Assembly (NCBI GenBank): GCA_016748015.1
Contig: JAAOMT010000708.1
Span: 261,440 to 325,439, forward strand
DNA: 64,000 bases
From: Geosiphon pyriformis
Taxonomy: Eukaryota > Glomeromycota > Glomeromycetes > Archaeosporales > Geosiphonaceae
Direction of reading: 5' to 3'
Shown here: in pieces, positions 231-37,605 of the stretch
Position numbering within the stretch: position 1 is the stretch's first letter
Layout: every line of letters starts with the position of its first letter
Made by a program: the position numbers and the translations under genes
Notes under the pieces: model-generated
What the model was told of the DNA's origin: nothing
Seen by the model: the letters and a program-made list of their open reading frames with translations, nothing else
The model's database searches: none

Positions 231-381
231 TTTGGCTGCTTTTTATAATCTAAGACACCTCATATAATATAAAACACCTCACATGTCCAATTAGATTTAA
301 GACAAAATAATGTTTAAGACATAACAGATACATTAATGTGTTATAAAAGCAAAATGCAATAAAAAGTGTGTTCTTATTAAC

Positions 382-867
382 ATGCCAAAAAATGCAAACC
401 AAAAGTGAACAGCAATCTCCTTGGAGACTAAAAAGACTCTCTGTTAGTACAAATTAGAGCATCCTGACTACTCAATAAATAGACTTATTGAAATATTTAA
501 TTTAAAGGTTGACTGCTCTACTGTAACAAAGATACTCGCAAAATCAGACTAATGAATTGAAAAAAATGTATCTGGCAACTCTGGTCAATTGACAAAGAAC
601 AGGAAAGAGATGTTTCCAAAAATAAATGATGCACTGAGAGAATAGATGCTTGAAGCACTAGCTACCAACTGCATTTTTACTAGAAAAATTTTACAAACAA
701 AAGCCCTCAAGTTTGCTGAAAAGTTTCTGGAAAAAAATAACTTTAAAGCATTAGATAGTTGGTTAGAAAAGTTCAAAAAACATCATAATTTACACCACAT
801 TAAGATGCATGGTGAAGCAAACAGTGCCTCCTTAGAAATTTTACTAGAGGAATGAGAGAAACTGCAT
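382..867 (+). pseudogene. pogo/Tigger transposase, N-terminal DNA-binding half
   Basis: From the ATG at 382 one frame runs to the insertion point at 867 (162 codons). The first part resembles a psq-type helix-turn-helix (HPDYSINRLIEIF, then CSTVTKILAKS). The second resembles a CENP-B/Tc5-type helix-turn-helix: ALKFAEKFLEKNNFKA, SWLEKFKKHHN, then KMHGEANS. Stops interrupt it at 406, 445, 550, 553, 643 and 853. The frame continues exactly at 21223 once the gypsy element and one 4-bp target copy are removed (codons cat | aag). The family moves its own element by binding its ends. This copy cannot. Confidence 0.75.
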
Positions 868-1674: not shown

Positions 1675-1676
1675 TT

Positions 1677-1694
1677 TGGTGCTCCCTGTAAGGT
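1677..1694 (+). promoter_or_regulatory. Primer binding site-like sequence of element A
   Basis: TGGTGCTCCCTGTAAGG starts two bases after the LTR end. The same block follows the 5' LTRs of B (8781), C (57617) and, with changes, D (63555). TGG complements a tRNA CCA end. The tRNA is not identified. Confidence 0.55.
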
Positions 1695-1736
1695 ATAATC
1701 CTACAAAGAACAGCACCAACAACACCCACCCAAACA

Positions 1737-3480
1737 GTGGCAGAATCCAAAAAAACAGGAACAAACCATTTAGAATTTGCAAAATCCTTATTCCAACATT
1801 ACTGTCAACATTTAGGATTAACCAATAATCACTTATTAGCAAAATCAGCTTTCAATTTCTATGTCAACAAGAGAATCTCATATTTGCTAGGAGTACCAGT
1901 AGAAACTGACTCAGCCAGAAAAAACTTCTACAACAAATTAATCCAGAATACCAACCTACCAGCAAATTATAATTTTACAGCAATCCTTACTGAAATCAAT
2001 AGAGAAATTGAAATTCACACTCAACAAAGATATCCAATTACCTATGCAAACAAAGACAAAGAAAAACTACAAACACCAACAGTAACACCCCAAAGAATAC
2101 AACCACCCACTAGAAAGAAAACAAGAGTTGAATCATCAACTAATTCATTATATTATTATACACCCAAAAGTGCCATCAATATTACATTAACAGGTGCATC
2201 CACATCAAACGTAACATCAATCTTTGGATGATTTTTATTTTAAAGTAAACAAAGGAAAGAAGATATTCTAGAACCATATGGCATGTATTTTGAAAGATTT
2301 AAGTCATAATCACTAACACCATCAGGACTTCAATCTCCATTATCCCAACCAGATTTTGGAACCACAAGTCCCTAGAAAGTAATGGAATTAAAAAAAGAAC
2401 AGAAAGAAGAGGAAGAAAAATCTGAAGATCAAAAATTTATTTATCAGAACCTGATCCCAGAAAACCCAGACATCGAAACCCCAAACTTTCAGACTCAGCA
2501 AGATCCAAATTTAGAAAATCTGGAAATAAAAACTCCAAATATTCAACAGTCACCAAATCAGAACAATCAAAACCCCGATCTAATCAATTACCTGAACTTA
2601 TCTCCAGTTATCATTGTTAACCCATCACAACAACTACTGTCACAACCTCAAAACCAGTTACTATTTCAATAACAACTCCAAAACTTAGATCCAATGGCTT
2701 ATGCCCCAATAGCAAAACTTGAGAAATTTACCAGCGAAGAGGATGACACTCAAATATGGCTCAACAACATAAAAAAAACCATCACGGCTAATGGATAGAA
2801 TAATGCCAGAGTTATGCAAGCCATCTCATATTTTCTTTAGGATACTGCCAATTTATGGTACCAAAATCTGGTCAACAAACTCCAAGATTTCAATGCATTT
2901 AAAATTAAGTTCTTAAGATACTTCAGTAATAATAACAGCATTAACAGGCTAGTAAACACCTTCACTACCATTAAACAAGGAGAAACCAAAGCAGTCACTA
3001 CTTACTTAGGATGGTTCTACAGAAATTTATGTCAAATCCAAGCAATTCAAGCTGACTATTTTACAGCGCCACAAATCTTAAATCAATTTATTAGAGGTCT
3101 GCACAGTAACATCCTCCAGCACATACGTCCAATGCATTCCATTAATCTGCAAGCTGTCATTACAAACACCAGAGATTTTGAAGCCACTGAATTAGAAGCC
3201 AACTACACCCAAGCAGTAAAATCTAGTAATGAATGGATCATCTGACTTGGATTCCAAATTGAAACAGTTCAGCAAATTAATAAATCAGAAATTAAAGAGA
3301 TACTTAGCTGACAATCGTGCAATCTATCAACCTCCACAATGACACAATAATCAAGAAAATACAAATTATTTCCAAAATCAATTGCATCCATTATCATCAA
3401 CCAATCAACAGTGACAACAGAAAACACATGTTTGCCACTATTGTGATAAACAAAGACATCTACAAATTGACTGCCACCAT
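1737..3480 (+). pseudogene. gag of element A (N-terminal ORF, capsid, CCHC nucleocapsid)
   Basis: Gag packages the element RNA. The first open block (1737-2231) encodes a family-specific N-terminal region and begins at GTG, with no ATG near it. A charged, Gln/Asn/Pro-rich linker (2382-2672) follows. A retrotransposon-gag capsid region (about 2694-3225) has the usual landmarks: W at TQIW, a NLWYQNL block and LRYFSNN. A knuckle of the form C-x2-C-x4-H-x4-C lies at 3433-3474. A +1 shift between capsid and knuckle and several stops break it. Element B keeps the same domains in better order, which supports the assignment. Confidence 0.75.
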
Positions 3481-3864
3481 CGCTTAAATAACTAACAATC
3501 AGGAAATCAATATCAAAACTCTAATTGCTGGTTTCAAATTCCAAATAACCTACCAAACTCAGAGCCATATTATCAAAATTACCTACCTATAATACAGCAG
3601 CCACTGTATCAACCACCAGTATATCAAGTGCCAATTTATTAACCAACAATACCAGCAATTTATCAGCTGCAGTCACAATTCATTTATTAGCTGCAGTCTC
3701 AGGAAATTTATCAGCCCCAACAAATTCAAACACTGCCACAGAACTTATCTCAAAACAGAACCCAAAGGCCAAAATTAATCCAACAAAGCTAGAGATCATC
3801 AATGGTAGTTTACCAACTGATTCTTAGTTCTTCCACACAACCAGTAGAATCTTGACAACAAAAA

Positions 3865-4430
3865 TTGGGCACTGAGTACACCCAACACCCAAATTCTCAG
3901 AACTATTTAAGTCTCCTGGTTACCTCAGAAGACACCCAACCCAATAATCTGGAAACCAACCAACAATCAACACTTACCAGCAATATTCTCCCAGCTGTCA
4001 TCATGGAGAACAAATTACTGGATGCCATCTTCCTATTTAAACTCGAAGAACCATCAATTACACTGTTGTTTAGTGGAGCCACTCTGGAAGAAAAATCTAT
4101 TACTGCCATGTACACTGATGCCAAAGTTAATGGCCACTTCATCAAACTGATCCTAGACAATGGATCAGCTGGCAGCATCATCACAAAACAACTCATGGAT
4201 CAATTAGGTTGTTGAGTTGATCACACTGTCAGCACTAGGATCATAACCACTGATGGAGCAACTAGAATGTTCATTGGTGAGATTAATAACTTTTTCATTG
4301 AAGTCAATGGCATAATCATATCAATCAAGGTACTAGTCATTGAAGCCACCCAATACCAAGCACTGATTGGTAACAATTGGCTGTTCAAAGTTAATGTGAT
4401 GCTTGATTGGAACACACAAGAGCTTTAACT
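3865..4430 (+). pseudogene. Retropepsin-like aspartic protease of element A
   Basis: The aspartic protease that matures Gag-Pol. The active-site region reads KLILDNGSAGSIIT, where B and C read LILDSGSAG, so the catalytic triplet is DNG instead of DSG. A second conserved block (QALIGNNWL) lies about 70 residues later. A stop at about 4213 separates the two. The domain lies downstream of a proline/Gln-rich linker and upstream of the Cys-rich region, in the pol frame. Confidence 0.75.
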
Positions 4431-4799
4431 TAGCCAAAATGGTTGACATACACACGTACCTGCCACATGTAGACACTTTAAACCCACCATCATGCCACCA
4501 GCCCTATTTATTGAATTTGAGAAAGAAAAAAAAAAACCTACCTGAGAAGCCTACCAAGTTTCCTGGGCTAACACAGAACACAACAAGCTGCCGCCAATAC
4601 CTTTGTGGGACAACAACAGCAAAAGAAAGCAGAGAGAAAAACTTACTTGGAACGTTGACCAAAACTGGGAAACCAACCATAATTCAGAAGAACCGACAAC
4701 TTGGAAATAAGATAAGAGGGAGAAAGAAAAAGGAAAAGCAAAGGAAATAGAGCCACTACCAACTGCTATTTACACTCCTTACACATATACACCATCACA

Positions 4800-5460
4800 A
4801 TGAGCAAGCTATTGTCAACCAAAGCTAATATGCATCAATTGTGATAAGAAATTGTCGTTAATAGGCACATGCTGTAACAACAATGAGGAATACCAAATGG
4901 TGACCAAATTCTACTGCTGTGCATGTGTTATAGAATGCTTTGAATGACCAAAACGGCAAGAAAAATGGAACAATAAACCTTGTTTAGCTTGTGGAGAAAC
5001 CTTACTCAACAAAAGAATGTGGAATGACATTCCTGGTTGAGGAGCAATGTGTAACACATCATGTCAGTACATGATTCTCATTAGTGACTAGATTAAGAAA
5101 GAAACACCAATAAAAACTACCTGGAGAAGAGCTGTACAGTAATTAGACAATTGTCCACATAACGATGACAAGATATGGAGAATGGCAATAGTCAAGATAG
5201 AAGGAGCATTACCTAAAGAAATCAGAGAAATCAAAAACAACCCACCAGAATCCATAGAACTTAACTGGGACCCAGAACCAGTCATAAATCTTCTAGATTT
5301 AAAACAATTTCATGAACACTACCAGGAATTAGCATCCACTAGAGAAGAACAAGAACAATGCCTAAAACAGTTGAATATTTGATTATGTCAATATTGTTTA
5401 ATTCTCTGTGACTTTCAATATTGTAATAAGTATGACCTCATTTACAATTCACCCATCCGC
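4800..5460 (+). pseudogene. Cys-rich zinc-finger-like region of element A
   Basis: Between protease and dUTPase, the pol frame holds spaced Cys pairs: CINCDKK, CCNN, YCCAC, PCLACGE, CNTSCQY, and later LCQYC...YCNK. The same order occurs in B, C, C-prime and E, so this is a conserved part of the polyprotein and not a chance reading. Pairs with C-x2-C spacing suggest metal binding. I do not recognise a named family, and the function is unknown. Several stops are present. Confidence 0.55.
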
Positions 5461-6486
5461 ATGATCTACACAATCCCAGAGGAGGAGGAACCAATCAGCA
5501 GCTGTGCATCGGAATTGGAATCAATTTTCAATCCCGATTCAAACTCTGACAACAATAATGACAAAAATAATGGTTCCAGCTCTGCTCAAAATGACAATAA
5601 AAATAACAATGATTCAGATTCTGATTCAAACCCCAAAACATTTATCACACTTCCTGACCTCACCAAGGAGCAGAAACCAAAATGGTTCAGTAATAACAAT
5701 AAAAAAATCATGCCAGAATGTGTGCACAATACTGATACAGGGTTTGATCTGAGATATTCAGGAAAGAATGCCATAATATTAGAACTTCATTTGCACATCT
5801 GCATTGATCTCAAAATAGCACTGAAAATTCCAGCAACAATAATGATTTAACTAGCATCTAGGAGTAGCTTAGCAAAGAAAGAAATCAACATCAAAGAAGA
5901 AATAATTGATACAGGATATGTAGGAAATATCATTGCTATGCTACAAAATAACTCTGAAAAGACTTATATTATAGAGCAAAATGAAAAGATAGCACAGACA
6001 ATATTCCTGCTTCTGGTTAAAATAGCTCAATTAGTGTCAATGAGAAACAGGGAAGAATTAGGGATTACAGCCAGAAAGATATAGGAATTCAGATTCATGA
6101 GCAAAATAGATATACTAGTCAATACAGCAGAGAAAGAAATTGTTGACAAAGAAGAAATTATCTCAATATGTCAAACAATTTCTATTTCACCATATGACCA
6201 GTATATGTTAGTCATAAAAAGAGAAGTAAAAAATCAAGCTCAGTTGTTTAAAGCAGAAGCCACTATTTGTGAATTAGGAGAGATTGGACTCACTAATTTC
6301 TACATATTAGCCAAAAACATCAAAATTCCCATCTACAATACAACTGGAAAGGTCATCAAAATACCAAAAGAAACTATTATTGGAAATTTAACCACGGAAG
6401 TTGAGAATCAACAGCCAAACCACATTCCAGATTTTCTACAGCTTTGTGAATATGTGGACATCATATCACAAACTATCTATGGATAA
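5461..6486 (+). pseudogene. dUTPase-like domain and pre-RT region of element A
   Basis: dUTPases hydrolyse dUTP to dUMP and limit uracil in newly made DNA. After a Ser/Asp/Asn-rich linker (5461-5640), the trimeric dUTPase motifs appear in order: GFDLRYSGKNAI (motif 1), SRSSLAKK (2), EIIDTGYVGNI with catalytic-type D and Y (3) and QNEKIAQTIF (4). Motif 5 is damaged next to a stop at about 6082. The rest (6097-6486) has the IPIYNTTGKVIKIPKETIIG block common just before gypsy RT. Element B preserves all five motifs. Confidence 0.7.
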
Positions 6487-6516
6487 AGTAAATGTTATCT
6501 GCTCCAACCAGAACAA

Positions 6517-7861
6517 TTGGAACAGATGAACATGAGAAATTTAAACCCACTTCAACAGATGCAACTAAAGATGTTACTTAGCAATTTCAATGACATTTTT
6601 GCTAGTAAAAATGAACTTGGCCACACCAATATCATCCAGCATCAAATCAAAACTGAAGATGCAATGCCAATTAAACAAAGAGCATATCGAGTACTACCAG
6701 CTAGTCATGAAATTATTTGTCAAGAAATCAATCAGATGTTTGACAATGAGCTAATTCAGCCATCAATAAGTCCATGGTTGTCATCAGTAGTACTAGTCCA
6801 GAAGAAAAATAAAAAGATTTGCTTTTGTGTAGATTATAGAAAACTCAACAGTATCATTCATGGAGACAGCTATTTAACTCCACAAATTCAGGAATTATTT
6901 GATGCTTTTAGTGGAAATAAATGGTTCTCAATACTGGATCTGAATAGTGATTACTGGCAAGTAGCCATGAATTCAGCTAACAAAGAAAAGACTGCATTTA
7001 CAACTAGAAAAGAAAATTTTGAATTTGAAGTTATGCCATTTGAATTAATGAATACACCAGCCACATTCCAAAAGCTAATAAAAATTGTTTACACAGGACT
7101 ATTATGGAAATCAGTAGTAATATACTTAGACAACACCAATGTATTCTCAAGAACATTTGATGATTATATCCATCATCTACAGCAAGTGTTTGAAAGACTC
7201 AAAAGAGCAGGATTGAAGTTAAATGTGAACAAATGCTTCTTCAAAAAGACGAAATTAAAATTTTTGGGACATGTTGTGAGCAAAGATAGCATCAAAACAG
7301 ATCCAGACAAGATTAAAGTCGTCAAGAACTTTCCAGTACCAAATAATCTCACAGAACTAAGAGTGTTCTTGGGATTTGCAGGGTACTATTGCTGTTTTAT
7401 CAAGGACTTTTCTAAACTGGCTCAGCCATTACACCAACTCCAAAACAAAAATGTGAAATATGAATGGACAGAAAGCCAGCAAAAAGTTTTTAATACACTA
7501 AGAAAAAAGCCCATTCAAGCTCCAATGTTAATTTATTTAGATTACAGCAAACCATTTATTATTACAACTAACACATCAGATCAAGCTTTGGAAGCAGTAC
7601 TATCACAGAGAGGATCAGATAGAAGAGAACACCCAGTAGCATATACCAGCTGAAGTCTGAGTCCAACAGAAAAGAACTATGGAATACCAGTATTAGAACA
7701 CTTAGCAATATACTGAGCAGTCATGAAATGGAAGAAATACTTGAGCCAGAAATTTAACATCTACATAGATCACAAAGGATTGACTTCAATTCAGAAGCAA
7801 GAATTTAGAGACAATTGCCATGCTTGATGGAAAATAAAACTTTCATCATTCAATTATACAG
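6517..7861 (+). pseudogene. Reverse transcriptase and RNase H of element A, cut by element B
   Basis: Copies element RNA into DNA. A 378-codon open block (6517-7653) covers RT fingers and palm: KQRAYRVLPASHE, VVLVQKKNKKICFCVDYRKLN, FSILDLNSDYWQ (first catalytic Asp kept), FLGHVVSKD and FLGFAGYY. The active-site loop reads YLDN where YLDD is expected, so one catalytic Asp is lost. The RNase H start reads TTNTSD where a TDAS is expected. After a stop at 7651 the RNase H region continues to 7861, where element B sits. It resumes at 18163. Confidence 0.85.
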
Positions 7862-8778
7862 TGTTACTCATAGAATATAGGAAATATAGTATTATTAGTC
7901 AGTAGATATTAGCCAATCAGATGTAGATATAATAAATATGGAATTCCAAGATTTCTCTTAGAGGAATTACAGAATTTCAGAAATTTCAGGATTCTTCAAC
8001 AAGGAATCACAGAATTTCAGAATTCCAGGATTCCTCTCATCAGGAATCGCAGGATTCTAGAAATTCCAGGATTCTTGTCACAAGGAATTAAGGAATCTCA
8101 AATATGTATATATAGCAGTAGTGTTAGAAGCAGAAAAGACAGAATTAACACTAGGAATTCTTAGCTTAGTTACCACAATCCTCAAATAAATAATTATTCA
8201 CTATATCAAATTCATTCTTTACTATTAACACTTCATGTTGATAATAACTGATACTTAACCATACTGGAACAATAGCTCTTGATCATGGCTATTGATAAGA
8301 TACTAACTTGTAAATTACCTTGGCTTATTTCTTATTTTTTCTTTTATCTTTCTTTATTTCTTGGTTGTCTACTAACTTGATTAAAAGATTTACTCTTGGA
8401 GGACTTATGGAGGAATAAAACTTACTTAAAAATACTTACTCTTGGAGGACTTATGGAGAAATAAACTTGCTTAAACAATACTTATTCTTGAAGGACTTAC
8501 AGAGGAACTGACATCAGAAAACAGCACTGGTATACACTTATGGAAGATATCGTACTATGAGGATCATCAACCATCCAGCTGAGCCAGCAATTGACGAAAC
8601 TATGGTTTCAGGAAACTACTGATAAACTGTTACCATTGAATCTCTGTCCATTATACAAAGAACTCAATTGGAAAATCTTTAGATAAAATACCTTCAGATT
8701 ATCATCATCACCAATTGCTTTGCGCACCAAGTTACAGGTTTGTTATTTACTCAACACCCCAAAGATTCACCTGTAACA
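7862..8778 (+). repeat. 5' LTR of element B
   Basis: Starts TGTTACTCATAGAATA and ends CACCTGTAACA. It carries U3 GGAATT/CAGGATT units (about 7940-8095), a TATA run at 8101-8114 and an ACTCTTGGAGGACTTA block repeated three times in diverged form (about 8390-8510). Closely similar to 17234-18158. Confidence 0.92.
8101..8114 (+). promoter_or_regulatory. TATA-like element in the LTR of B
   Basis: The run AATATGTATATATAG is followed by CAGTAGTGTTAG, directly after the U3 repeat units and at the same relative place as in A and D. Confidence 0.5.
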
Positions 8779-8780
8779 TT

Positions 8781-8798
8781 TGGTGCTCCCTGTAAGGT
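8781..8798 (+). promoter_or_regulatory. Primer binding site-like sequence of element B
   Basis: TGGTGCTCCCTGTAAGG, two bases after the LTR and identical to the site in element A. Confidence 0.55.
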
Positions 8799-8840
8799 AT
8801 AATCCTACAGAGAACTAGCACCAACAAGAACAAACCAAAA

Positions 8841-9206
8841 GTGGCAGAATCAGAAAATATAGGAGCAAACCATTTAGGATTCACGAAATCTTTGTTTCAA
8901 CAATACAGCCAACAATTAGGATTAAACAGTAATCATTATCCAGCTAAATTAGCTTTCAACTTCTATGTCAACAACAAAATTACTGAATGCTTAGGAGGAA
9001 CAGTTAATATTAAAGCAGCAAGAGAAAACTTTTACACAGAATTATTCCAACATACCAACTTACCAAGGAACTATAGTTTTACACCAATAATCAGAGAAAT
9101 CAACCAAATTATTGAAAGGTACACTCAACAACAATTTCCTATCACCTATGCAAATAAAGACAAAGAAAGGTTACAAACACCAGCAGTAATGCCTAAAAAG
9201 ATATAA
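8841..9206 (+). pseudogene. N-terminal gag region of element B
   Basis: A 121-codon open block starting GTG-GCA-GAA. Its homologues are in A (1737) and D (63612), with a shorter relative in C (57676). It has an alpha-helical look, with AFNFYVNNKITECLGG and RENFYTELFQHTNLP blocks. I recognise no named domain. It is likely the N-terminal (matrix-like) part of Gag, by position only. None of the copies has an ATG at or just upstream of the conserved start. In B this block is out of frame with the capsid because of an indel; in C the equivalent block is in frame with the rest. Confidence 0.6.
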
Positions 9207-9483
9207 CTACCAACCTGGAAGAAACAAAAAATTGAATTTCCACTATATCCATCATATCATCGCATACCTGGAAGCACTATCAATATTTCATCTGCAGGTG
9301 CGTTCACACCAAACACAACATTAACATTTGAATGATTCTCATTCCAAAGTAAACAAAAAAAGCGGAGTTATTAGGACCATATGATGAATATTTCGAGGGA
9401 TTTAAATCCCAATCACCAATGCCATCAGAAATTTGATTACCACCACCTCCACCAGATTTTGGAATCTCTGATTCGTGGAAGGT

Positions 9484-10630
9484 AATGGAATCAGAAGAAA
9501 AAAAAGAAAAAGAAACTGAGGATCAAAAATTCACTTACCAGAACCCAATCACTGAAAACCCGGAATTTGAAACTCCAAATCTTCAGAACCAGCAAAATTT
9601 AAATTCAGTAAATTCAGAAGTTGAAACTCCAAATATTCAAACACTGTCAACTTAGAATAATTGAAACTCTGATCTAATTAATCAATCAAACTTACCTTCA
9701 GTAATCATTATCAATCAACCACCAATTGATCCAATAGCCAAACCCATACAGCAGCCACTTCAACTACCACCTCAACAAAATCAACAACTGCTTCAACAGT
9801 CACCACAACCATCCAACTTAGATCCAATGACCTACCCACCAATTGCAAAACTGGATAATTTTACCAGTGAAAAGAACGACACTCAAGTATGACTGAATGA
9901 TGTGGAAAAAGCCATTGCAGCCAACAGATGGAATGATGTTCGAACAATGCAAGCCATTCCCTATTTTCTCAAAGATACTGCCAATTCATGGTATTAGAGC
10001 TTGATCAATAAACCACAAGACTTCAATGCCTTCAAAGTGGAAGTTTTAAGATACTTCAGCAACAATAACAGTATCAACTGTCTAGTTAATACATTCACCA
10101 CCATGAAGCAAAGAGAAACTGAAACAGTCACCACTTACCTGGGACGCTTCCATAGAAATCTGTGCCAGATCCAGGCAATTGACGCCAACTATTTCACAGT
10201 GCCACAGATCCTCAACCAGTTTATCTGTGGCCTGTGCAACAGTATCTTGCAACATGTATGCTCGTTGTATCCAAGCATCCTTCAAGATACAGTCACACAT
10301 GCCAGAGATTTTGAATCAGCTGAGTCCGAGGCCAATCATGCCCAAGCTGTTAATCTAGTAATAAAAAGATCATCTGAATTAGACTCCAAATTGAAACAAT
10401 TCAGTAATTCAATTAATCAGAAATTAGAAGGATACTTAGCTGACAATTGCACAATTTATCAACCACCTTAATGACGCAGCAATTCAGGAAACTATAATCA
10501 TTCCCAAAATCAAGTGTGTCCCTCAACATCGGCCAATCAACAATGGCAATCAGAGACACGTGTTTGCCACAATTGTGGTAAACAAGGGCATATTGGAGCA
10601 AACTGCAACGCTTATAACCACCAGTAATCG
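9484..10630 (+). pseudogene. gag linker, capsid and CCHC nucleocapsid of element B
   Basis: An acidic, Gln/Pro-rich linker is followed by capsid sequence (from about 9827) with AKLDNFTSEKNDTQV, DTANSWY and a long open block 10001-10471 (LRYFSNNNSINC, TTYLGRFHRNLCQIQ, QILNQFICGL). A canonical zinc knuckle lies at 10565-10606: C-H-N-C-GKQG-H-IGAN-C. Several stops occur, including TAG at a Trp position next to DTANSWY. The capsid assembles particles and the knuckle binds RNA. The frame is shared with the downstream protease. Confidence 0.78.
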
Positions 10631-11039
10631 GGAAATCAATATAGAAACTCTGATTGCCAATTTCAAACTCCGAGATATTAACAAAATCAGGAACAATATC
10701 AAAACACTTACCTACCAATAACACAGCAGCCAATTTACCAAGCACCAGTATATCAGATGCCAGTTTATCAATCACAGCTACCAGCAATATATCAACCACA
10801 GCCATCTGTAATATATCAGCCACAACCACAAGTAATCTATCAACCCCAATCAATTCAGACATCGCCCCAAAATTCAGTTAATATGACATCAAGCTACTCC
10901 AGACCTAGAAGCACACAAAACTAGAGATCGGCGATAGTTGTCCACCAACCAATCTCTAGTTCTTCCAATTCATCATCAGAATCACATTCTTGGAATTCAG
11001 GTACTAGTGCCACCCAAAATCTGAATTCCCAGAACTATT

Positions 11040-11680
11040 TAAGTCTTCTGGTTACCCCAAAAGACACCACCACCAACAATTCAGAATCCAACCAACAACA
11101 AGCACTTATCAACAACATTCTACCAACAACTGTCACCAATGACAAATTGCTCGTAGTCATCTTTCCCTTTAACTTGGAAGAAATGATTAAAATTCCATTA
11201 TTTAGTAGAGCAGCTCTGAAAGAGAAGCCAATCACTGCCATGTATACAGATGCCAAAATTAATGGCCATGTTATCAAACTGATCTTAGATAGTGGATCAG
11301 CTGGCAGTATTATAATAAGGCAACTCATGGATTAATTAGGTTGCCGAGTTGACCAAGCTGCCAGTGCAAGGATCATTACAGCTGATGAAATGATCAAAAC
11401 TTCAATAGACAAAATAAACAATCTACCTATTGAAATTAATGACATCATAATACTCATCAAAATCCTTGTAATAGAAGCCACTCAAGCTCTTGTTGGAAAT
11501 AATTGGCTATCCAAAACAAACACTGTACTTGATTGGATGATGCAAGAGCTCCAACTGAACCAAAACAGTCAACATACTCAAGCACCAGCAGTATGCGGCT
11601 ACTTTAAACCAACCAACTTGCAACCACTGATTGAACTTGAGAAAGAAACAAAGAAACCAACATAAGAAGCATATTAGGTT
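11040..11680 (+). pseudogene. Retropepsin-like protease of element B
   Basis: The active-site block IKLILDSGSAGSIIIRQL keeps the DSG triplet, and a flap-side block (QALVGNNWLSK) follows. There is one stop between them (about 11335). The domain sits in the same frame as capsid and RT and is preceded by a long Gln/Pro/Tyr-rich spacer with YQPQ-type repeats (about 10690-10860). Confidence 0.78.
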
Positions 11681-11689
11681 TTGTGGGCC

Positions 11690-12553
11690 AATGTCGACCA
11701 CAATGAACTGCTGCCCATATTTGCCTGGAATGAAAATAACCATGGAAAAGGAAAACAGAAAAAAGAACATACCTGAGAAACCACTATTGGTGCTTGGATT
11801 GATAACAACCAAAATGAGTTGCCACCTACACTAAGTTGGGAAGAAAAAGGAAAGAGAAAAGAAAGAGAAAACAACCTACCAAAGGATACTGAATCAACAA
11901 AAAACACCACTAGTGGCTGAACAAGTTTGTACTCTGTCCATGAGCCACTGCCACAACCACCACACATACCACTCAAATACAAAGATTGTGAGAAGAAACT
12001 TTCTTTCATGGGAGCTTAGGTTGCACCAAATGAAAATCACTGGATGTGAACCCACTATTATTGTAAGCCTTGCCATTGCAAACAGTATGGCTATCCAAAA
12101 AGACAGGGCAAGTAGGACAACAAACTATGTCTCACTTGTGGCAAACAGTTGCTCAACAAAGAAATATGAAATGACATTCCTGGTCGAGAAGAAACATGCA
12201 ACACTTTATGCCAGTACATGATCCTCATCAATGACTGGGTGAGTCATGATACACCAATAACTGCTGCTTGGCACTGAGCAATCTTTCACCTGGACAGATA
12301 CTCACACGATGAAGACGAGATCTGGCAGATGGCGAACACCAAAGTAGAAAGTGTCATGCCCAGCAAAATCTTAGAAATTAAGAACAATCCTCCAGAACCA
12401 GTCAACATTATCCTAGTCTCCAACCCAGATGCTTTCTTCAACATTGAGACCAACCCAGAAGACTTTCACGAACATTATCAAAATTTAGCACTGACCAGAA
12501 AGGAACAGGAAGAGTGGTTAGCACAGCTAAATACTTAATTATGTGACCACTGT
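11690..12553 (+). pseudogene. Cys-rich zinc-finger-like region of element B
   Basis: In the pol frame, about 12060-12240 contains YYCKPCHC, LCLTCGKQL and TCNTLCQY, that is C-x2-C, C-x2-C and C-x3-C clusters. A further cluster follows at the start of the next open block (LCDHCLILCDFKYCNK). The same arrangement occurs in A and C. Many stops interrupt it. The region is about 250 codons and has no counterpart that I know in standard gypsy pol. Metal binding is inferred from Cys spacing only. Confidence 0.55.
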
Positions 12554-13663
12554 TTGATCCTATGTGACTTTAAATATTGTAATAAGTATGACTTCATTTA
12601 CAATCCACCAATCTGCATGATTTACACAATCCCAGAGGAAGAAAAACCAATCAGCAGCTGCACATCGGAATCAGAATCACTGTTTGATCTTGATTCAAAC
12701 TCCAACAATGACAACAATGAAAACACCAGTTCCAGTTCCATTCAAATTAGTGATAACAATGATGACGATTCCAACTCAGATTCAAACTCTGACCCAAAAT
12801 ATAAACAATACATTGTACTGCCAGACCTCTTCAAAGAACAGGAGTTGAAATGGTATAGTGACAATAATGAAAGTATTATGTCAGAATGTGCACACAATAA
12901 TAATGCTGAATTTGATCTGAGATATTCAGAAAAAGATGCCATCAAATTGGAACCACATTCATGTATCTGCATTGATTTGAAAATAGCACTGGAAATTCTA
13001 GCAACAACAATAGTTCAACTAGCATCTAGAAATAGTTTAGCAAAAAGAGGAATTAATATAAGAGGAGGAATAATTGACACAAGATATGTAGGAAATATCA
13101 TCACTATACTACAAAATAACTCAGAAGAGGCCTATATAATAAAGCCCAATGAAAAAATAGCACAGGCAATATTTCTGCCTCTGGTTAGAGTAGCTCAGTT
13201 AGTATCAGTAGGAAAGAGAGAGAAATTAGGAATAACAGCGAGAGGAATACAGAGATTTGGATCAACAGGTAGAGTAGATGTACCAGTCAATATGGCAGAA
13301 GAAGAAATTGTTTACCAAGGGAAAATTATCTCAATGAGTCAAACAATTTCCATTCCACCATATGGCCAGTACTTGATAAGGATAAAGTGTGAGGTAAAAA
13401 AACAGAATCAAATTTTTGAAGCAGAACCAACCCTTTGTGAATCAGGAGAGATTGGACTCATCAATCTCCATATACCAATCAAAGATTACAGTCACATCAA
13501 AATACCCATCTACAATAATACAGGAAATGTCATAGTAATACCAGCTGGAACCACTATTGGATACTTAAGCACTAAAATAGAGGATCAACCACTAAGCATC
13601 ATTCTGGACTTTCCACAGCTTTGTGGATATGTTGATATCACATCACAAACAATATATGGATGA
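12554..13663 (+). pseudogene. dUTPase-like domain and pre-RT region of element B (best copy)
   Basis: A 369-codon open block. After the last Cys cluster and a Ser/Asp/Asn-rich linker (residues about 30-85), all five trimeric dUTPase motifs can be read: FDLRYSEKDAI (1), SRNSLAKRG (2), GGIIDTRYVGNI with the D-x-x-Y pair of the active site (3), NEKIAQAIF (4) and RGIQRFGSTG (5, the nucleotide-closing tail). The C-terminal 120 residues carry IPIYNNTGNVIVIPAGTTIG, the usual segment before gypsy RT. In known enzymes this domain removes dUTP. Whether this copy was active is unknown, but no catalytic residue is obviously lost. Confidence 0.8.
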
Positions 13664-13693
13664 AGTGAATATTATTTGTTCTAACCAGAACAA

Positions 13694-15075
13694 TTGGAAC
13701 AAATGAACATGGGAAACTTAGATCCACTCCAATGTATGCAACTTAAGATGTTGCTCAACAATTTCAATGCCATTTTTGCCAGTGAAAACAAGTTTGGCCA
13801 AACTGACATCATCCAGCATCAGATCAAGACTGAAGATGCAATGCCAATTAAACAAAGAGCATACAGAGTACTACCAGCTAGCCATGAGATTATCTGTCAA
13901 GAGATAAACCAAATGCTTGATAACAGGCTAATTCAGCTATCAATAAGTCCATGGTCATCACCAGTAGTACTCATTCAAAAAAAGAATGAGAAAATCTGTT
14001 TTTGTGTGAATTATAGAAAACTCAATAAAATAACTTGTAAAGATAGCTACTCCACTTTACGGATCCAAGAATTATTTGACACTTTCAGTGAAAACAAATG
14101 GTTTTTAACATTAGATCTGAACAGTGGTTACTGGCAAATAGCCATAAATTCAGCCAACAAAAAAAAGACAGCATTCACCACCAAAGAAGAGAATTTTGAA
14201 TTTGAAGTAATGCCATTTGGCTTAACCAATGCACCAGCCACTTTCCAACAGCTAATGGAAATTGTTTATACTGGCTTATTGTGGAAATCAGTAGTTGTAT
14301 ACTTGAACAACACCAATGTATTCTCAAAAACATTTGATGATTATTTTCATTATCTTCAACAAGTGTTCGAAAGACTAAGAAAAGCAGGACTAAAGTTAAA
14401 TGCAACAAAGTGTTTTTTCAGCAAGACAGAACTAAAATTCTTGGAACACATAATCAGCAAAGACGGCATCAAAATGGATCCAGAGAAAATAGAGATAGTA
14501 AAAAACTTTTCAGTGCTGACCAATATGACAGAACTGAAATCATTCTTGGGATTCACCAGCTACTATCAACATTTCATCAAGAACTTTTCCAAGATAGTGC
14601 AGCCACTCAACCAACTACAAACCAAGAATACAAAATATGAATGAACAGAAAATCAACAAGAAGCTTTTAATATTCTGAAAAGAAAGCTCATTCAAGCTCT
14701 AGTACTGATCTATTCAGATCACAGCAAACCATTCATCATTACCATTGATGCATCTGGCCAAGCATTGGGAGTGGTACTATCTTAGAAAGGACCAGATAGC
14801 AGAGAACATCCAGTAGCATATGCCAGCAGAGGTTTAACACCAGCCAAAAAGAACTATGGAATACCAGAATAAGAACACTTAGCGATATACTAGACAGTCA
14901 TAAAATGGAAAGAATACTTGAGCCAGAAGTTTGAAGTATACACAGATCACAAAGGATTAACATCACTTTAAAAACAAGAATTTGGAGATAGAAGACAGTC
15001 AAGATAGAAAATGGCACTTATATCATATAATTATACTATACATTATAAAAAGGGAAAAGACAATGGAAATGCTAA
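13694..15075 (+). pseudogene. Reverse transcriptase and RNase H of element B
   Basis: An open block of 316 codons (13694-14644) holds RT: KQRAYRVLPASHE, PWSSPVVLIQKKN, CVNYRKLNK, LTLDLNSGYWQ with the first Asp kept, and FEVMPFGLTNAPATFQ. The active-site loop reads YLNN where YLDD is expected, so both loop aspartates are Asn. RNase H follows (TIDASGQALG, then YTDHKGLTSL) with stops at 14641, 14785, 14869 and beyond. Element A shows the same domain order, and its interruption point falls at the equivalent of about 15043. Confidence 0.85.
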
Positions 15076-16440
15076 CAGTTTGTCACAAATGAGACAAATC
15101 TAAGAACATTTCAACCCAAAAATATAACAAAACCAGAACAATACCAATGAAAAATATAACAAAAAATAAACATACAAAAAATATCAACAACTGCAACATT
15201 ATATAAACACTCAACAGTTCAAGGAGAATTTATCTCAAATGGAATAAAAGAGTATCAAACAACAATCAAAATATTTTATCACTCACCAAAATATACTTTA
15301 TCAGAAAAATAGAAAAGATCTAGAGCAACCAACCAGAGTAATTACAGAGCCAGAAAAAGAAACAATATTATTTAACATGTACTCAAATCCAACAGCAGAA
15401 CACTTTCACAAAGAAGCAACTATGGAAAAAACCAAAAAAAAATATTATTGGCCATCAATGTATCCAGACATCATCTAATATGTTCAAAATTGTGATGCTT
15501 ATCAGTAAAGAAGAGGTACGAAACCCAGTGAATCATTAAGACCAATCAAAGTGGGACAATTATTTGACCGTATTGAAATTGATTTAGTCAGACTATTAAC
15601 AATTACCAGTGGAGAAAACAGATACATAGCAGTAGCCATGGACTATCTTACTAAATGGCCAGAGGCAAAAGCAATTCAAAAAGTGGATGCAGAATCTATT
15701 GCCAAATTTGTTCATCAAGATTTAATTTGTCAACATGAATGTCCAAAAGAATTATTATCAGACCAAGAAACTCATTTTGTGAACAGAACATTAACAGAAT
15801 TGAGCCAAAGATTCGGAATTAAGAGACCACTATCATTACCATACTATCCACAAACCAACAAATTAGTTGAAAGATTCAACAGAACATTGTGTAAAGCAAT
15901 AGCTAAGCTCAACCAAGAAAACCAGAATGATTGGGATTTGTTGATACTATCAGTACTATTTGCTTATCAGACAATAAAACAAGATACTACACAAGCAACA
16001 CCATTTGAATTAGTATATAGTAGAACAGCAACACTACCAGTAGAAATAGAAGTCAGCACATACCTAACCGAACCAATAACGGAAGAGAATTTCAAAAACA
16101 CATTGTTAAGAAGAACATATAACTTAATGGAAACATTAGAAAACAAACGATAAAGAGCAGCTGATAATATACAAAAGTTACAAGAGAAACAAAAAAAAAG
16201 ACATGATAACCAACTACCAGATAAACCAGTTAAATTCAAGATTAGAGACAAAGTACTACTATATTGTACCAAAGTGGAAAAACAATAGAGTAGAAAATTT
16301 GACCCCAAATGGGACGGACCATTTTACATAGAAGAAATTCTAAGAAATAGAACTTACAAATTAAGATTGAATAACAAAATCTTGACCAAAGCAGCATATG
16401 GAGATTGACTAAAACCATATCACCATATAGCATCATCATC
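15076..16440 (+). pseudogene. Integrase of element B
   Basis: Inserts element DNA into the host. The N-terminal HHCC zinc site is damaged: the first His is Tyr (NMYSNPTAEHFH) and the last Cys is Tyr (CDAY). The catalytic core is open for 200 codons (15551-16153) and keeps the D, D, E set: EIDLV, LLSDQETHF, KLVERFNR. The C-terminal part has the GPFYIEEIL and YKLR blocks typical of gypsy integrases, with stops. The frame is shared with the upstream RT. No chromodomain is apparent. Confidence 0.85.
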
Positions 16441-16568
16441 TACCAGTAATATTCCACAATTAGGAGTACAGAGAATACTAGTCCAACCAGATAAGATTCC
16501 ACAAGATCTGAAACCAATTATTATTATTGACAACAACATGTCCAATTGATTGACAAAAGAATATATAA

Positions 16569-17217
16569 GAACATGATTGACGCAACAGAAGAAATCAGAA
16601 AAATAGAAATTACGGACAATATTTATTCACTAGCCCAACAAATTTTTCAATTAATTCAACACCAAGAAATAGAAATTACAATTAATTAACAAATCATTTG
16701 TTACAAAAAATACCACAAAACAAAGCACAAAAAAGACTTGAAAATGTTGTTGACAAGATCATGACCAAGATAAAATTGACCATAAAAGAACAACAAATAG
16801 TCGGATTACACCAAAAACTTACCAGAGAAACTTGGACTTGGTGGATGCAACAATTTCCAAAAAACTATTGTCATTTCCACTTGGAACAACATGTAAATAT
16901 CCAGAATTTATACACTGACAAAACAAAATGGTTATTCAACACAACAATACTGAGACAACTGGAACAATTTGTGGGAAAAAACAATCTAACCACACAAGCT
17001 CAAGCCATTTACCAGCTATATATGGAATTTCAAGACTAACCAGAATCTTACTCAACACAGCAATGGATACAGTTATGAGTAATCAATTGGGAAAAATGAC
17101 CAACACCCAATTTGAAGAACTACAAACTAAATAACACAAATAATACTCAAAAAAGAAGTTCAAGAAATAATTCAAGAAGGGAAATTAAAGGAATTAGATT
17201 TCAATGAAGCTCAATAT
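16569..17217 (+). pseudogene. Post-integrase ORF of element B, unknown function
   Basis: A short open stretch (from about 16569; EITDNIYSLAQQIF) and a longer one (16698-17039) encode a conserved sequence: TWTWWMQQFPKNY, LEQHVNIQNLY, LEQFVGKNNLTTQA and AIYQLYMEFQD. The same order follows integrase in A (19671-20337) and, decayed, in C-prime (27600-28330). I see no signal peptide, membrane segment or Env feature. It could be a C-terminal extension of Pol or a separate accessory protein, and I do not recognise the family. Confidence 0.55.
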
Positions 17218-17233
17218 TAAAAGAAGAGAATAA
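17218..17233 (+). promoter_or_regulatory. Polypurine tract of element B
   Basis: TAAAAGAAGAGAATAA directly precedes the 3' LTR. The same kind of tract precedes the 3' LTR of A. It primes plus-strand DNA in this class of elements. Confidence 0.7.
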
Positions 17234-18158
17234 TGTTACTCATAGAATATAGGAAATATAGTATTATTAGTCAGTAGATATTAGCCAATCAGATGTAGAT
17301 GTAATAAATATGAAATTTCAAGATTTCTCTCAAAGGAATTACAGGATTCTAGGAATTTCAGGATTCTCCAACAAGGAATCGCAGGATTTCAGAATTTCAG
17401 GATTCCTCTCATCAGGAATTGCAGGATTCCAGGAATTCCAAGATTTCTGTTACAAAGAATTGAGGAATTAAGGAATCTCAAATATATATATATAGCAGTA
17501 GCATTAGAAACAGAAAAGACAGAATTGACACTAGGAATTCTTAGCTTAGTTATCACAATCCTCAAATAAATAATTATTCACTATATCAAATTCATTCTTT
17601 ACTATCAACCCTTCATGTTGATAATAACTGATACTTAACCATACTGGAACAATAGCTCTTGATCATGGCTATTGACAGGATACTAACTTGCAAATCGCTT
17701 TGGCTTATTTCTTATTTTTTCTTTTATCTTTCTTTATTTTTTGGTTGTCTACTAACTTGATTAAAAGATTTACTTTTGGAGGACTTACAGAGGAATAAAA
17801 CTTACTTAAAAATACTTACTCTTGAAGGACTTATGGAGGAATAAACTTGCTTAAACAATACTTACTCTTGGAGGACTTACAGAGGAACTGATGTCAAGAA
17901 ACAGTACTAGTATACACTTACAGAGGATATCGTACTATGAGGATCATCAACCATCCAGCTGAGCTAGCAATTGACAAAACTACAGTTTCAGGAAACTACT
18001 AATAAACTGTTATCATTGAATCTCTGTCCATTATACAAAGAACTTGATTGGAAAACCTTCAGATAAAATACCTTCAGATTATTATTGTCACCAATCACTT
18101 TGCACACCAAGTTACAGATTTGTTATTCACTCAACATCCCAAAGATTCACCTGTAACA
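17234..18158 (+). repeat. 3' LTR of element B
   Basis: TGTTACTCATAG...CACCTGTAACA, matching 7862-8778 apart from scattered, mostly C/T and G/A differences. Followed directly by the ACAG target copy, after which element A resumes. Confidence 0.92.
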
Positions 18159-18162
18159 ACAG

Positions 18163-19640
18163 TACATTATAAAAAAGGAAAAGACAATGGAAATATCAAT
18201 GAATTGTCGTGAATGAGACAAATCTAAAAACATTTCAACCCAAAAATATAGAAAAAAAAAAGATGAATATACAAAAATACCAACAACTCCAACATTATAT
18301 AAATACTCACTTGTTTAAGGAGAAATTATCTCAAAAAAAACAAAACAACATAAAACAGCAATCAAAATATTTTATCAATCATCAAAATATACTTTACTGG
18401 AAAAACAAAAGAAACTCAGACCAGCCAACCAGAGTAATTACAGAACCAAAAAAAGAAACAATATTGTTCAACATGCACTCAAATCCAACAGCAGGACATT
18501 TTCATAAAGAAACAACCATAGAAAGAACCAGAAAGAAATATTATTGGCCATTTATATATCCAGACATTATCTAATATGTTCAAAATTGTGATGCTTGTCA
18601 AAGAAGAAATGGAACAAAACCCAGTAAACCATTGAGACCAATCAAAGTGGGACAATTATTTAACCACATTAGAATTGATTTAGTCAAACCATTAACAATT
18701 ACCAGCAGAGGCAACAGATATATTGCAGTAGCCATGGATTATCTTACAAAATGGCCAGAAGCAAAAGCCATTCAAAGAGCAGATGCAGAATCCGTTGCCG
18801 AATTTGTCCACTAAGATTTAATCTGTCAACATAAATGTTCAAAAAAATTATTATCTGATCAAGAAACTCACTTTGTGAACAGAACATTAACAGAATTAAG
18901 TTAAAGATTTGGAATCAAAAGACCATTATTATCACCATACCATTCACAAACAAATGGGTTAGTTGAAAGGTTTAACAGAATATTGTGTGAAACAATTATC
19001 CAGATCAGTCAAAAAAACCAGAACAAATGGAATTTGTTCATATCATCAGTACTATTTGCTTATCAGACAATAAAGCAAGATACTACACAAACAACACCAT
19101 TTGAATTGATATACAGTAGAACAGCAACATTATCAGTTGAGATAGAAGTCAACACTTATCCAACAGAACCAATAACTGAAGACAATTTTCAGAAAATATT
19201 GCTAAAAAGAACATATGACTTAATGGAAACACTAGAAAACAAATGACGAAAAGCAGCTGATAACATTCAAAAGTCACAAGAAAAACAAAAAGAAAAACAT
19301 GATAACCAACTATCAGACAAACCAGTTGAATTCAAGATTGGAGACAAAGTACTTTTACATTATATCAAAGTGGAAAAACAATAGAGTAGAAAATTTGATC
19401 CCAAATGGAACAGACCATTTTACATAGAAAAAATTCTTGGAAATAGAGCTTATAAACTAAGATAGAACAACAAAATCTTAGCCAAAGCAGCACATAGTAA
19501 TCGACTGAAACCATATCACCATATAGTGACATCATCTACCAGTAACATTCCACAATTAGAAGTACAGAGAATACTAGTCCAACCAGATGAGATTCCACAA
19601 AATCTGGAACCAATCATAATTATTAGACCAAACACATAAA
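18163..19640 (+). pseudogene. RNase H end and integrase of element A
   Basis: Continues the reading broken off at 7861: the joined region reads like the uninterrupted homologue in B at about 15043. The integrase zinc site is intact (NMHSNPTAGHFH, then CDACQRR). The core keeps RIDLVKPL, LLSDQETHF and GLVERFNR (D, D, E). Stops occur at 18572, 18812, 18901 and 19244, several of them TAA/TAG at codons that are CAA/CAG in B. The C-terminal blocks (PFYIEKILGNRAYKLR) run to about 19520. Confidence 0.85.
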
Positions 19641-19670
19641 ATTAATAATAGTAAAAAAGTATATAAAGAC

Positions 19671-20337
19671 ATGGTAGATGTGACAAAAGACATCAGAAAA
19701 ATGGAAATTACTGACAACATTTACTCACTAGCACAACAACTCTTTTAATTAATCCAATAACAAGAAATAAAAATCACAATCAATTGACAAACTATCAAAT
19801 ACACAAACACTAGAAAAAAACTACAAGATAAAGTATAGAGAAAAACAGAAAACACTGTTGACAAAATAATGGCAAAAGTGAAACTGACAATAGAAACACA
19901 ACCCAAAATCTCCCAATATTAAGAGTTGACTATAAAAACCTGGAATTGGTGGATACAACAATTTCCAAGAAATTTTTGTTACTTTTACTTGGAACAACAC
20001 GTAAATATTTAGAATCTATATATGGATAAGACAAAATGATTATTTGACATGACAATACTACAACAACTGAAACAATTTGTGGGAAAAAACAATTTAACCA
20101 CACAAGCAAGAGCCATTTATTGGCTATATACTGGATTTCAAGATTGACTAGAAATCTTGCTCAACACTGAAATGGACACTGTTACTGTCAACTAAATGAG
20201 AAAAATAACCAACATTCAATTTGAAGAATTACAAAACAAAATAACACAAGTAATTCTCGAAAAAAAGTTCAAGAAATACTCAAAGATAGAGAAATAGAGT
20301 TAAGAGATTTAGGAAATCTCGACAGAGCTCAATATTA
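19671..20337 (+). pseudogene. Post-integrase ORF of element A, unknown function
   Basis: The homologue of the post-integrase region of B: DIRKMEITDNIYSLAQQLF, TWNWWIQQFPRNF, LEQHVNI, LKQFVGKNNLTTQA and ITNIQFEELQNKI. It has many stops but the same block order and spacing. Conservation in a second, separately integrated element argues that it was a functional part of the family. Confidence 0.5.
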
Positions 20338-20351
20338 AAAGGAGAGAATAA
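20337..20351 (+). promoter_or_regulatory. Polypurine tract of element A
   Basis: AAAAGGAGAGAATAA immediately upstream of the 3' LTR. Confidence 0.7.
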
Positions 20352-21218
20352 TGTTATTTATAAAATATAAGAAAGATATTAGTATATAGATTAACCAATC
20401 AGAAGTAGCCATAGTAAATGTGAAATTCCAGGATTCCTCTTAAGAGGAATTACAGAATTCCAGGAATTTCAGAATTCTTGTACAAGAAATTGCAGGATTT
20501 CAGAATTCCAGGATTCTTCTTAAAAAAAATTGCAGGATTTTAGGAATTCCAGGATTTCTGGCATAAAGAATCAAGAAATTGAAGAATCTCAATTATGTAT
20601 ATATAGTGGTAGTGTTAAAAGTAAAAAAGACAGATCTCTCAGTTTAGATTTAATCTAAGCAACCTTCTATATTTGCAAATATTAATAAATAATTATTTAA
20701 TATTCTAATATTCACTCTCCACTATCAACACTTCATGTTAATAGTCATTAACACTTAACCACACTGGAACAATAGCTCTTGATCATGGTTATTGACAGAA
20801 TACTAACTTGTGTATTGCCTTGGCTTATTTTTTTATTTCTTTTATTTTTCTTTTATTTTCTTTGATTTTATTGTTGTATACTAATTGATTAGGAATTAAA
20901 GTGCTGAGTTATTGATGTCACAAATAGTCTGGTAAAAGACCCAAAAATAAAGATAGAATCATATATATATTAATAGATGGCTTATCAGAAGGACATGACT
21001 GTCAGAATAAACCAGCCATTACGCTGAAGACAAAAATTGGGAAACCAACTTACCAACCAACTATATTGTCATTAAATCTCTGTCTATTATACAAAGAACT
21101 CAACTCTAAAATCTTCAGATACAACTATGTACCAGTATTATTAGCATCAGCAAAATATTGAGCACCAAGTTATAGATTTGTTATTTGATTTGAGACTCCA
21201 AATAATTATCCTGTAACA
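20352..21218 (+). repeat. 3' LTR of element A
   Basis: TGTTATTTATAAAATA...CCTGTAACA, 867 bp against 807 bp for the 5' copy. The extra length lies in additional GGAATT/CAGGATT units. The following ACAT is the second target copy. Confidence 0.9.
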
Positions 21219-22822: not shown

Positions 22823-24480
22823 ATAATAATATCAATAAAAAAAATTAACAATTTTCTATTTGAAATTAATAAAATTAAAATTCCAATTAAAATACTTGTC
22901 ATAAAAGCCATTCAATATTAAGCTTTTATAGAAAATAATTAGTTATCAAAAGCTTATGTAATATTGGATTAGAACATATAAAAATTTTAGATTATTTTTA
23001 ATAAACAATATGCTAAAGTACCAGCTATCTGTAAATATTTTAAAAATACAGTTCCAAAACAATTTTTAATCAAATTTGAAAAACCCAACTTCCAATTAAC
23101 CTTAGAAACTTATCAAGTTTTTTGGACAGACAATTTTAGAACAGATTTATTACTATCTTTTACATAGAAAAAAAAAACAAAAAAAGAGTTAACAAAAAAT
23201 TTCAGACATAAATACCAGTTTACTTAACTCTAAATCAATAAAATCAACTATATTGACTCCTAAAATTAATTTTTATTAATTGTGAAAAGAAATTATTCTT
23301 AATGAATACTTGTATCAAAGACAATAAAATATGTCCAACTATTATCAAATACTATTGTTGTTTTTGTGTATTAAAACAATTTGAACAACCAAAACAACAA
23401 AGCAAATAAAAAAATATATTATGTTTTGTATATAATAAAATTCTATTCAATAAAAAACTATAGAATAATGTCTTTAACAAAAAAAAAATACAACAAATTT
23501 TGCCAATACATTATTCTAATTAATATTTAAGCTTAAAAAAACTGTTTGTTATAACTTATAGTTAAGCAATAAACTAATTAGATTTATATTCTTATAATGA
23601 AAAAAAAATTTGGAAAATGACCACAAAAAAGTAAAAAAATGTTACAATTGAAAAAATAAATACCATAAAAAATGTCCTAATAATCATTAAAAAAATGAAT
23701 AATTTATTTATTAATAACTTTAAAACATTTCAAGACTAATATCAAAAATTTGTTCTATTTAAGAAAAACAAATACAAAAATTAGCCAATCTTAATATAAA
23801 ACTATGTGACTATTATTTGATCTTTTGTTATTTCCAGTATTGTAATAAGTGTAATTTCTTGTTTAATCTATTCTTATAAATACTACACACTATTTTTAAA
23901 CTTAAAGAATTTAAGAAAGAGTATATATTAGTAATCAAGAACACAATATTTTAAGAATTAAATATAACTATTAAAATAAAACAATATTTACATATCTTGA
24001 CCTCTTCAAAGAATTAGAATTGAAATGATACAATAACAACAATAAAAAAATATGTTTTAAAAAAGCATATATAAATAATGTTGAATTTAATTTAAGATAT
24101 TTTAGACAATATTTTGATAGTTATAATATTTTATTTTCTTGTGAAAATAGATCTCAAATTAGCTTTAAAAATTTTTATTAGCACTATAGTCCAAATTACA
24201 TCTTAATTTAGTCTTGTAAACAAAAATATTAATGTTAAAAGAGAAATAATTAATATTAAATATATTGAGAATATAATCATAATGTTTTAAAACAATTCTG
24301 GTAAGTCATATATAATTGAATTACAAAAAAAGATTATACAGACTATTTTTCTATCTTTCATAAAGATCTTTCAACTAATTTTTATAATTATGTATAAAAA
24401 ATTAAGTTTTATTGCTTAAAAAATCCAAAAATTTAAAGTAAGTAGAAAAAGAAATATACAAATTAATTTTGTGAAAAACA
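22823..24480 (+). pseudogene. C-prime protease, Cys-rich and dUTPase remnants
   Basis: The protease end (about 22823-23170) aligns with the C sequence after the active site. The Cys cluster at about 23800-23870 still reads CDYYLIF...YCNKCNFLF, the counterpart of CDHCLISCH...CDKCDFMF in C. The dUTPase part (about 24000-24420) is recognisable only by alignment with C. Confidence 0.5.

Positions 24481-37570: not shown

Positions 37571-37605
<35 letters not shown>

Follow-up and report, generated by a model that had tools for sequence, protein, structure and literature searches.

We analyzed a 64,000-nucleotide stretch of the Geosiphon pyriformis (Glomeromycota) genome, referred to below as the window, which covers positions 261440-325439 of contig C299 in an assembly of 124.7 Mb and 406 contigs. 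An excerpted table of PMC9453076 lists 64.35% repeats and 29.25% G+C for this species. The window carries a Ty3/gypsy retrotransposon, element B, inserted in another element with long terminal repeats (LTRs), element A (Table 1). When the window was compared with itself, homology of element A broke off at position 7859 and picked up at 18163, on the two sides of element B. The LTR ends of element B read TG...CA, and a 4-base target repeat (ACAG) stands at 7858-7861 and 18159-18162. Within element B, an open reading frame (ORF) upstream of the reverse transcriptase (RT) encodes a dUTPase-like domain. This domain and the lineage that carries it are the subject of our analysis.

Table 1. Elements, domains and motifs located in the window
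Feature	Position	Strand	Basis or remark
Element A, split by element B	868-21218 (868-7859 plus 18163-21218)	+	Homology to B collinear on either side of the insertion
LTRs of element A	868-1674 and 20352-21218	+	82.5% identical (blastn row)
dUTPase domain, copy A, decayed	5686-6135	+	tblastn, 63% to B
RT and start of RNase H, copy A	6517-7650	+	PF00078 E 3.8e-23; PF17919 E 9.9e-16
Integrase zinc-binding piece, right-hand part of split element A	18209-18571	+	PF17921 E 4.2e-9
Element B, Ty3/gypsy, nested in element A	7862-18158	+	Self-comparison of the window
LTRs of element B	7862-8778 and 17234-18158	+	91.6% identical
Gag piece, copy B	9998-10468	+	PF03732 E 3e-7
ORF of element B, dUTPase domain and barrel-like domain	12554-13663	+	Ends in TGA
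dUTPase domain, copy B	12884-13273	+	PF00692 E 8.5e-17; tblastn
Motif 1 AEFDL, copy B	12905-12919	+	Read in translation
Motif SRNSLAKRG, copy B	13025-13051	+	Read in translation
Motif GGIIDTRYVGNI, copy B	13064-13099	+	Read in translation
Motif NEKIAQAIF, copy B	13148-13174	+	Read in translation
Motif RGIQRFGSTG, copy B	13241-13270	+	Read in translation
Domain between dUTPase and RT	13319-13588	+	Predicted strands follow dUTPase barrel order
RT, copy B	13694-14641	+	PF00078 E 1.8e-25; Ty3 RT 4ol8 E 5.8e-48
Integrase core (rve), copy B	15551-16150	+	PF00665 E 7.3e-10
Strongly decayed dUTPase copy in AT-rich stretch	24117-24476	+	tblastn; RT remnant 24904-25733
Strongly decayed dUTPase copy, closest to family 2	52558-53004	-	tblastn 40%, E 6e-26
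Aspartyl protease of element E, upstream of its dUTPase	59839-60378	+	PF13975 E 9.9e-10
dUTPase domain, copy E, decayed, internal stops	61231-61680	+	tblastn
RT of element E, shortened by LTR-like stretch from about 62678	62065-62685	+	RT tree; self-comparison of the window

The initial annotation had proposed the dUTPase-like domain from the letters of the sequence, and profile searches bear it out. PF00692 matched residues 111-239 of the ORF with 61.6 bits (gathering cut-off 22), upstream of a Ty3-like RT. A phmmer search of the PDB with the same ORF returned 41 sequences at E <= 0.001 (best 2.3e-10), nearly all labeled as dUTPase or dUTP pyrophosphatase; a few are labeled otherwise, for example as 'Putative uncharacterized protein' or 'POL POLYPROTEIN'. 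The four motif strings quoted in that annotation are all present in order, after motif 1. The predicted structure model (an earlier prediction from 26 rows had a mean pLDDT of 27) resembles trimeric dUTPase beta-barrels. Across the element lineage the five motifs follow one another in order, and motif 3 has its Asp and Tyr. A genome search with PF00692 gave 3181 first-look candidates, and 150/150 of those scored exceeded the cut-off. The genome thus holds at least 150 dUTPase copies above the cut-off, in at least four element families. With this result, the fold match and catalytic motifs in order, the chance that these dispersed matches reflect coincidence or low complexity is negligible.

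Although the motif order holds, copy B is not as clean as the initial annotation implied. Motif 1 has Glu at position 119, where 69/119 relatives have Gly, and motif 2 has Asn at position 160, where 104/119 have Ser. Position 234 in motif 5 is Arg, and Gly in 71/120 rows when the window's own row is counted. Two in-frame stops precede the RT, at 13661 (the TGA that ends the ORF) and 13682. Because of these motif changes and stops, copy B is probably dead, and the window copies of this lineage are probably inactive in general. The domain had also been assigned to elements A, C, C-prime and E. We found it in A and E, but C and C-prime were not located; a tblastn search across the window, accepting E values as high as 1, gave no dUTPase match at 14.6-23 kb, so the two are unconfirmed if they were meant to lie there.

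The proposed position of the domain between protease and RT was confirmed for these fungal Ty3/gypsy elements, though on other copies and relatives, because the protease frame of copy B is broken (RVP_2 E just 0.15). In locus L055, scanned in pieces, one frame contains gag-type matches (below the Pfam cut-off), an aspartyl protease (above it) and the dUTPase; a single stop follows this frame, and then RT and RNase H. P0268 has the order gag (above cut-off), protease (slightly below) and dUTPase (above). All of protease, dUTPase, RT and RNase H are joined in P0270, a single 882-residue protein that JGI names dUTP nucleotidohydrolase. In element B, the best of 187 PDB sequences matched by the RT was the Ty3 RT, and the integrase lies downstream of the RT. 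No Chromo match was found in the six pieces scanned for a chromodomain; L115 has a GPF-like stretch, and its piece ends shortly after.

We considered whether the stop between dUTPase and RT is programmed, since B and L055 both stop close to that place. Among 120 listed proteins, which are predicted gene models and include the window's own, 46 run past the flanking motif, 36 end at it and 38 are without the motif. Because these 46 run past and the frame of L056 has no stop at that place, we read the stops as decay of individual copies. Very long open frames were likewise rejected as a sign of intact elements, as several span runs of N.

The element region is abundant among annotated Geosiphon proteins. 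Among the best 120 of 637 ORF homologs, 119 are Geosiphon pyriformis entries titled 'hypothetical protein G9A89_...', and the remaining one is the window's own. More than 200 listed 'hypothetical proteins' of Geosiphon match this region and are most likely element fragments, which calls for caution from annotators. We surveyed 40 of 150 listed RT places, hand-picked from the top two thirds of the score-ordered list. A dUTPase lies up to 1.9 kb upstream of the RT, at a near-constant distance, in 22/40 loci, and none lies within that reach in the other 18. The one dUTPase-less locus that was read, L086, has a different protease-RT linker with clustered cysteines.

We compared the histories of the dUTPase and the RT. 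When the search was restricted to long proteins, 39 came up: 36 named as Geosiphon and three others, P0267, P0270 and P0279 (sources lgn, jgi and ena). Their dUTPases are 55%, 54% and 39% identical, respectively, to the nearest Geosiphon family. P0279 is a pol protein of 1937 residues with the dUTPase at residues 1289-1415. The dUTPase tree (27 rows) joins 12 Geosiphon element rows with P0267 and P0270, both pol proteins, in one clade (support 100/99). In the RT tree (48 rows), the 26 Geosiphon rows with a dUTPase form one clade (100/98) and the 18 dUTPase-less loci another (100/100); P0267 joins the latter (91/92), and P0270 and P0279 fall outside, in a tree whose bootstrap is not fully settled and in which branches are long for P0279, P0270, P0267 and one decayed row from the window. 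Family 2 separates from family 1 plus B and E in both trees (dUTPase 87/81, RT 95/84). Because the families branch alike, we read the domain as old, present before the Geosiphon families split, and inherited with pol and its RT. The initial annotation had called it ancestral to two LTR families, and our results extend this to at least four. With Ty3 as the root, the RT tree is most simply explained by a single early gain of the dUTPase and a single loss, and independent gains are a possible alternative.

A recent capture of the domain from the cellular dUTPase gene of Geosiphon would offer a different origin. The host genome does have such a gene, at L120:1169-1916 (G000:C262 near 402.6 kb), with five exons that were read by eye rather than from transcripts, and the C-terminal motif RGASGFGSTG. 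Searches with the family and with the yeast protein were swamped by element copies and a strict motif-5 pattern found none, but a short central query recovered this intron-bearing gene, which rules out loss of the host dUTPase. The host enzyme is encoded by a gene with introns, separate from the element copies. Its protein groups with yeast and chlorovirus dUTPases (100/98), and forcing host and elements into one clade costs 81.7 log units (p-AU, the approximately unbiased test, 3.6e-14). Between motifs 2 and 3, the element domain also has one residue fewer than the host protein. We consider recent capture, which is rejected under this model, very improbable.

A retroelement-specific origin shared with lentiviral dUTPases is somewhat less remote. 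The best PDB matches of the family-2 domain are the dUTPases of feline immunodeficiency virus (FIV, 1f7d) and equine infectious anemia virus (EIAV, 1duc), with E 3e-15. These enzymes share with the Geosiphon domain the fold, the motifs, pol encoding, the shorter motif 2-3 loop and GG[VI]IDxGY, and a single element and FIV/EIAV clade is not rejected (p-AU 0.33), in a comparison of just 150 columns. However, the window ORF matches chlorovirus, E. coli and yeast enzymes (the last in PDB 3p48, which we take to be Dut1) at E 2.3e-10 to 8e-10, versus 7.6e-6 for FIV. The best tree places the element and FIV/EIAV domains apart, with low support, and the short loop also occurs in some phage dUTPases. 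Lentiviral dUTPase follows RT-RNase H, whereas the Geosiphon domain precedes the RT. Such kinship thus seems unlikely to us. Among 317 records of phage dUTPases every one was below 60% identity, and a scan of viral contigs with P0270 gave no confirmed match.

Codon comparisons show purifying selection on the dUTPase between families. The family-2 subfamilies L019 and L030 differ by a synonymous divergence (dS) of 0.87 and a nonsynonymous divergence (dN) of 0.09, and the median pairwise dN/dS-type ratio is 0.39 over 171 pairs of family 1 and 0.19 over 367 pairs of family 2. All 12 motif positions are intact in 23/48 fetched copies, which were chosen by PF00692 score and are biased to intact ones. 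Purifying selection and the intact motifs of sister copies together point to an enzyme that was active in the progenitors.

A second domain follows the dUTPase in element B and has predicted strands in the order of a dUTPase barrel. It is present in 19 of the 40 RT loci and, judged by eye, missing in P0270 and P0279. This second barrel is possibly a degenerate dUTPase fold. We tentatively entertained a tandem module of herpesvirus type, in which an active first barrel would be joined by a structural second one that replaces trimer contacts or tethers the enzyme to the RT. The top Foldseek match, Epstein-Barr virus dUTPase (2bsy), covers 244 columns of the 272-residue model at a TM-score of 0.33 and an rmsd (root-mean-square deviation) of 11.4, with model residues beyond 217 hardly tested by the VIA-align rows. 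In HHalign the second domain reached a probability of 2.7% (E 0.017) when aligned with dUTPases of cells, phages and lentiviruses and of 0.7% with those of the elements, and the real scores were reached in 1/400 and 24/400 column shuffles. Motifs of the herpesvirus enzyme are distributed over both halves, whereas all five Geosiphon motifs lie within the first barrel. Given these scores, the tandem module is doubtful.

Enzymes of the dUTPase family convert dUTP to dUMP and pyrophosphate. We think it likely that the Geosiphon elements represent a Ty3/gypsy lineage with a pol-encoded, trimeric-type dUTPase that would clear uracil, its domain inherited with the RT. In replicating progenitors, the protease would free the dUTPase, or the dUTPase would stay joined to the RT. 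The enzyme would turn dUTP into dUMP in or near the particle and keep uracil out of the cDNA, which would then be spared uracil excision. It would help most in resting nuclei of the hyphae, where little host dUTPase is expected. An advantage of dUTPase in non-dividing cells has been proposed for viruses, according to an excerpt of PMC2864245. The uracil-avoidance idea is testable in this fungus, whose genome offers a natural contrast in a sister lineage without dUTPase.

The fold might instead persist without catalysis, in a structural or binding role, for example to assemble the particle or to anchor the RT. There is a precedent in the dUTPase-related protein of bovine immunodeficiency virus, reported inactive in the consulted part of PMC4261571. 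The barrel-like neighbor in 19 of the same 40 loci and the weaker selection on the dUTPase than on the RT would also fit. Against such a role, 12 motif positions are kept in nearly half of the fetched copies, and P0267 and P0270, although only about 54% identical, retain the motifs with the Asp and Tyr of motif 3 (motif 5 of both ends in GSS, not GST). We regard a purely structural role as quite unlikely and favor the uracil-clearing enzyme.

Several observations weigh against this preferred reading, beginning with the intact-biased choice of the 48 copies. A sister Geosiphon Ty3/gypsy lineage (18/40 loci) does without a dUTPase. The P0279 dUTPase groups outside the Geosiphon element clade, and because of this placement its element may have taken up a dUTPase of its own. 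The close pair L019/L027 has a ratio of 1.22 at dS 0.04, and between-family pN/pS is higher for the dUTPase (0.31-0.52) than for the RT (0.27-0.32), with synonymous sites (pS) near saturation. In the 119 annotated proteins most closely related to B, all 12 residues are kept in 14 and the 7 core residues in 59, and conservation is 0.824 in motif columns and 0.823 elsewhere. Because few relatives keep all residues and motif columns are no better conserved, it appears that selection worked on replicating elements and that the present copies drift.

Fungal elements bearing a dUTPase were reportedly described by Novikova and Blinov in 2008 and by Riccioni et al. in 2008. The consulted part of PMC2864245 describes a dUTPase between protease and RT in PosPlaTy3-5 of Postia and cites earlier reports for Phanerochaete and Tuber elements. 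The Gypsy elements of basidiomycetes, Phanerochaete and Tuber share with the Geosiphon elements a Ty3/gypsy pol and this placement; compared by description, they carry the dUTPase at varying places and took it up independently, whereas Geosiphon has one placement across at least four families. The LTR elements Juno, Vesta and TelKA of bdelloid rotifers also have the domain between protease and RT (excerpt of PMC5408684) and, as in Geosiphon, carry it in whole lineages. Their host is an animal, and in Juno an additional zinc knuckle follows the dUTPase, where Geosiphon has a barrel-like domain. A similar retroelement-linked expansion in an early-diverging fungus is suggested by the dUTPase Pfam enrichment alongside retroelement proteases in Entomophthora muscae (excerpt of PMC11105155), given there as a domain count without element anatomy. 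We found no report of dUTPase elements in Glomeromycota in the open-licence literature (most subscription papers lie outside this search). The suggestion that the lineage may be poorly described is consistent with this search as far as carriers in Glomeromycota go, but the protease-RT layout is already in print elsewhere. Our results extend pol-encoded dUTPase to Glomeromycota, in a strongly multiplied lineage that spans several element families.

The repeats also decay in a characteristic way. In LTR pairs, where the comparison gives transitions without polarity, 69 of 70 differences (element B), 93 of 95 (element A) and 31/32 (L055, L056 and L057) are transitions; L053 and L054 had no pair. 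Polarized single-copy changes were C to T or G to A in 203/218 cases in family 1 (7 of 9 loci used), 169/214 in family 2 (10 of 11) and 233/283 in the dUTPase-less loci (11 of 18). Rates were 0.027-0.061 per C site outside CpG versus 0.001-0.004 per A/T site. Per copy-site, they were 0.027-0.036 for CpA, 0.038-0.061 for CpC and 0.031-0.041 for CpT, with CpG counts of 0/10, 9/70 and 1/11. CpG deamination, inferred from CpG depletion, was rejected as the sole cause because C to T changes are elevated in all contexts that offer enough sites.

C:G to T:A changes on both strands of repeats are a trait of repeat-induced point mutation (RIP), and the polarized changes show it. RIP prefers CpA, as summarized in an excerpt of PMC12543289; no CpA preference was seen in the repeats compared. 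This near-exclusive C:G to T:A decay is similar to RIP and could be a new observation in Glomeromycota, with methylcytosine deamination as the plain rival. Matches to PF00145 at ten places in the genome, several with stops, indicate that cytosine methylase genes or their remnants exist. For Gigaspora margarita, PMC8647823 reports that no signatures of RIP were detected.

Elsewhere in the window, an LTR-like stretch at 62678-64000 breaks the RT of element E and continues to the window end; it is probably another nested insertion. Positions 38699-39409 contain a candidate host gene with a helix-loop-helix domain (PF00010 E 3.7e-12). The ratio of observed to expected CpG is 0.12-0.18 in 1-20000 and 57000-64000 and 0.94 in 36000-40000, around this candidate gene. 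Other stretches of the window have just 15-18% G+C, with decayed element remnants inside.
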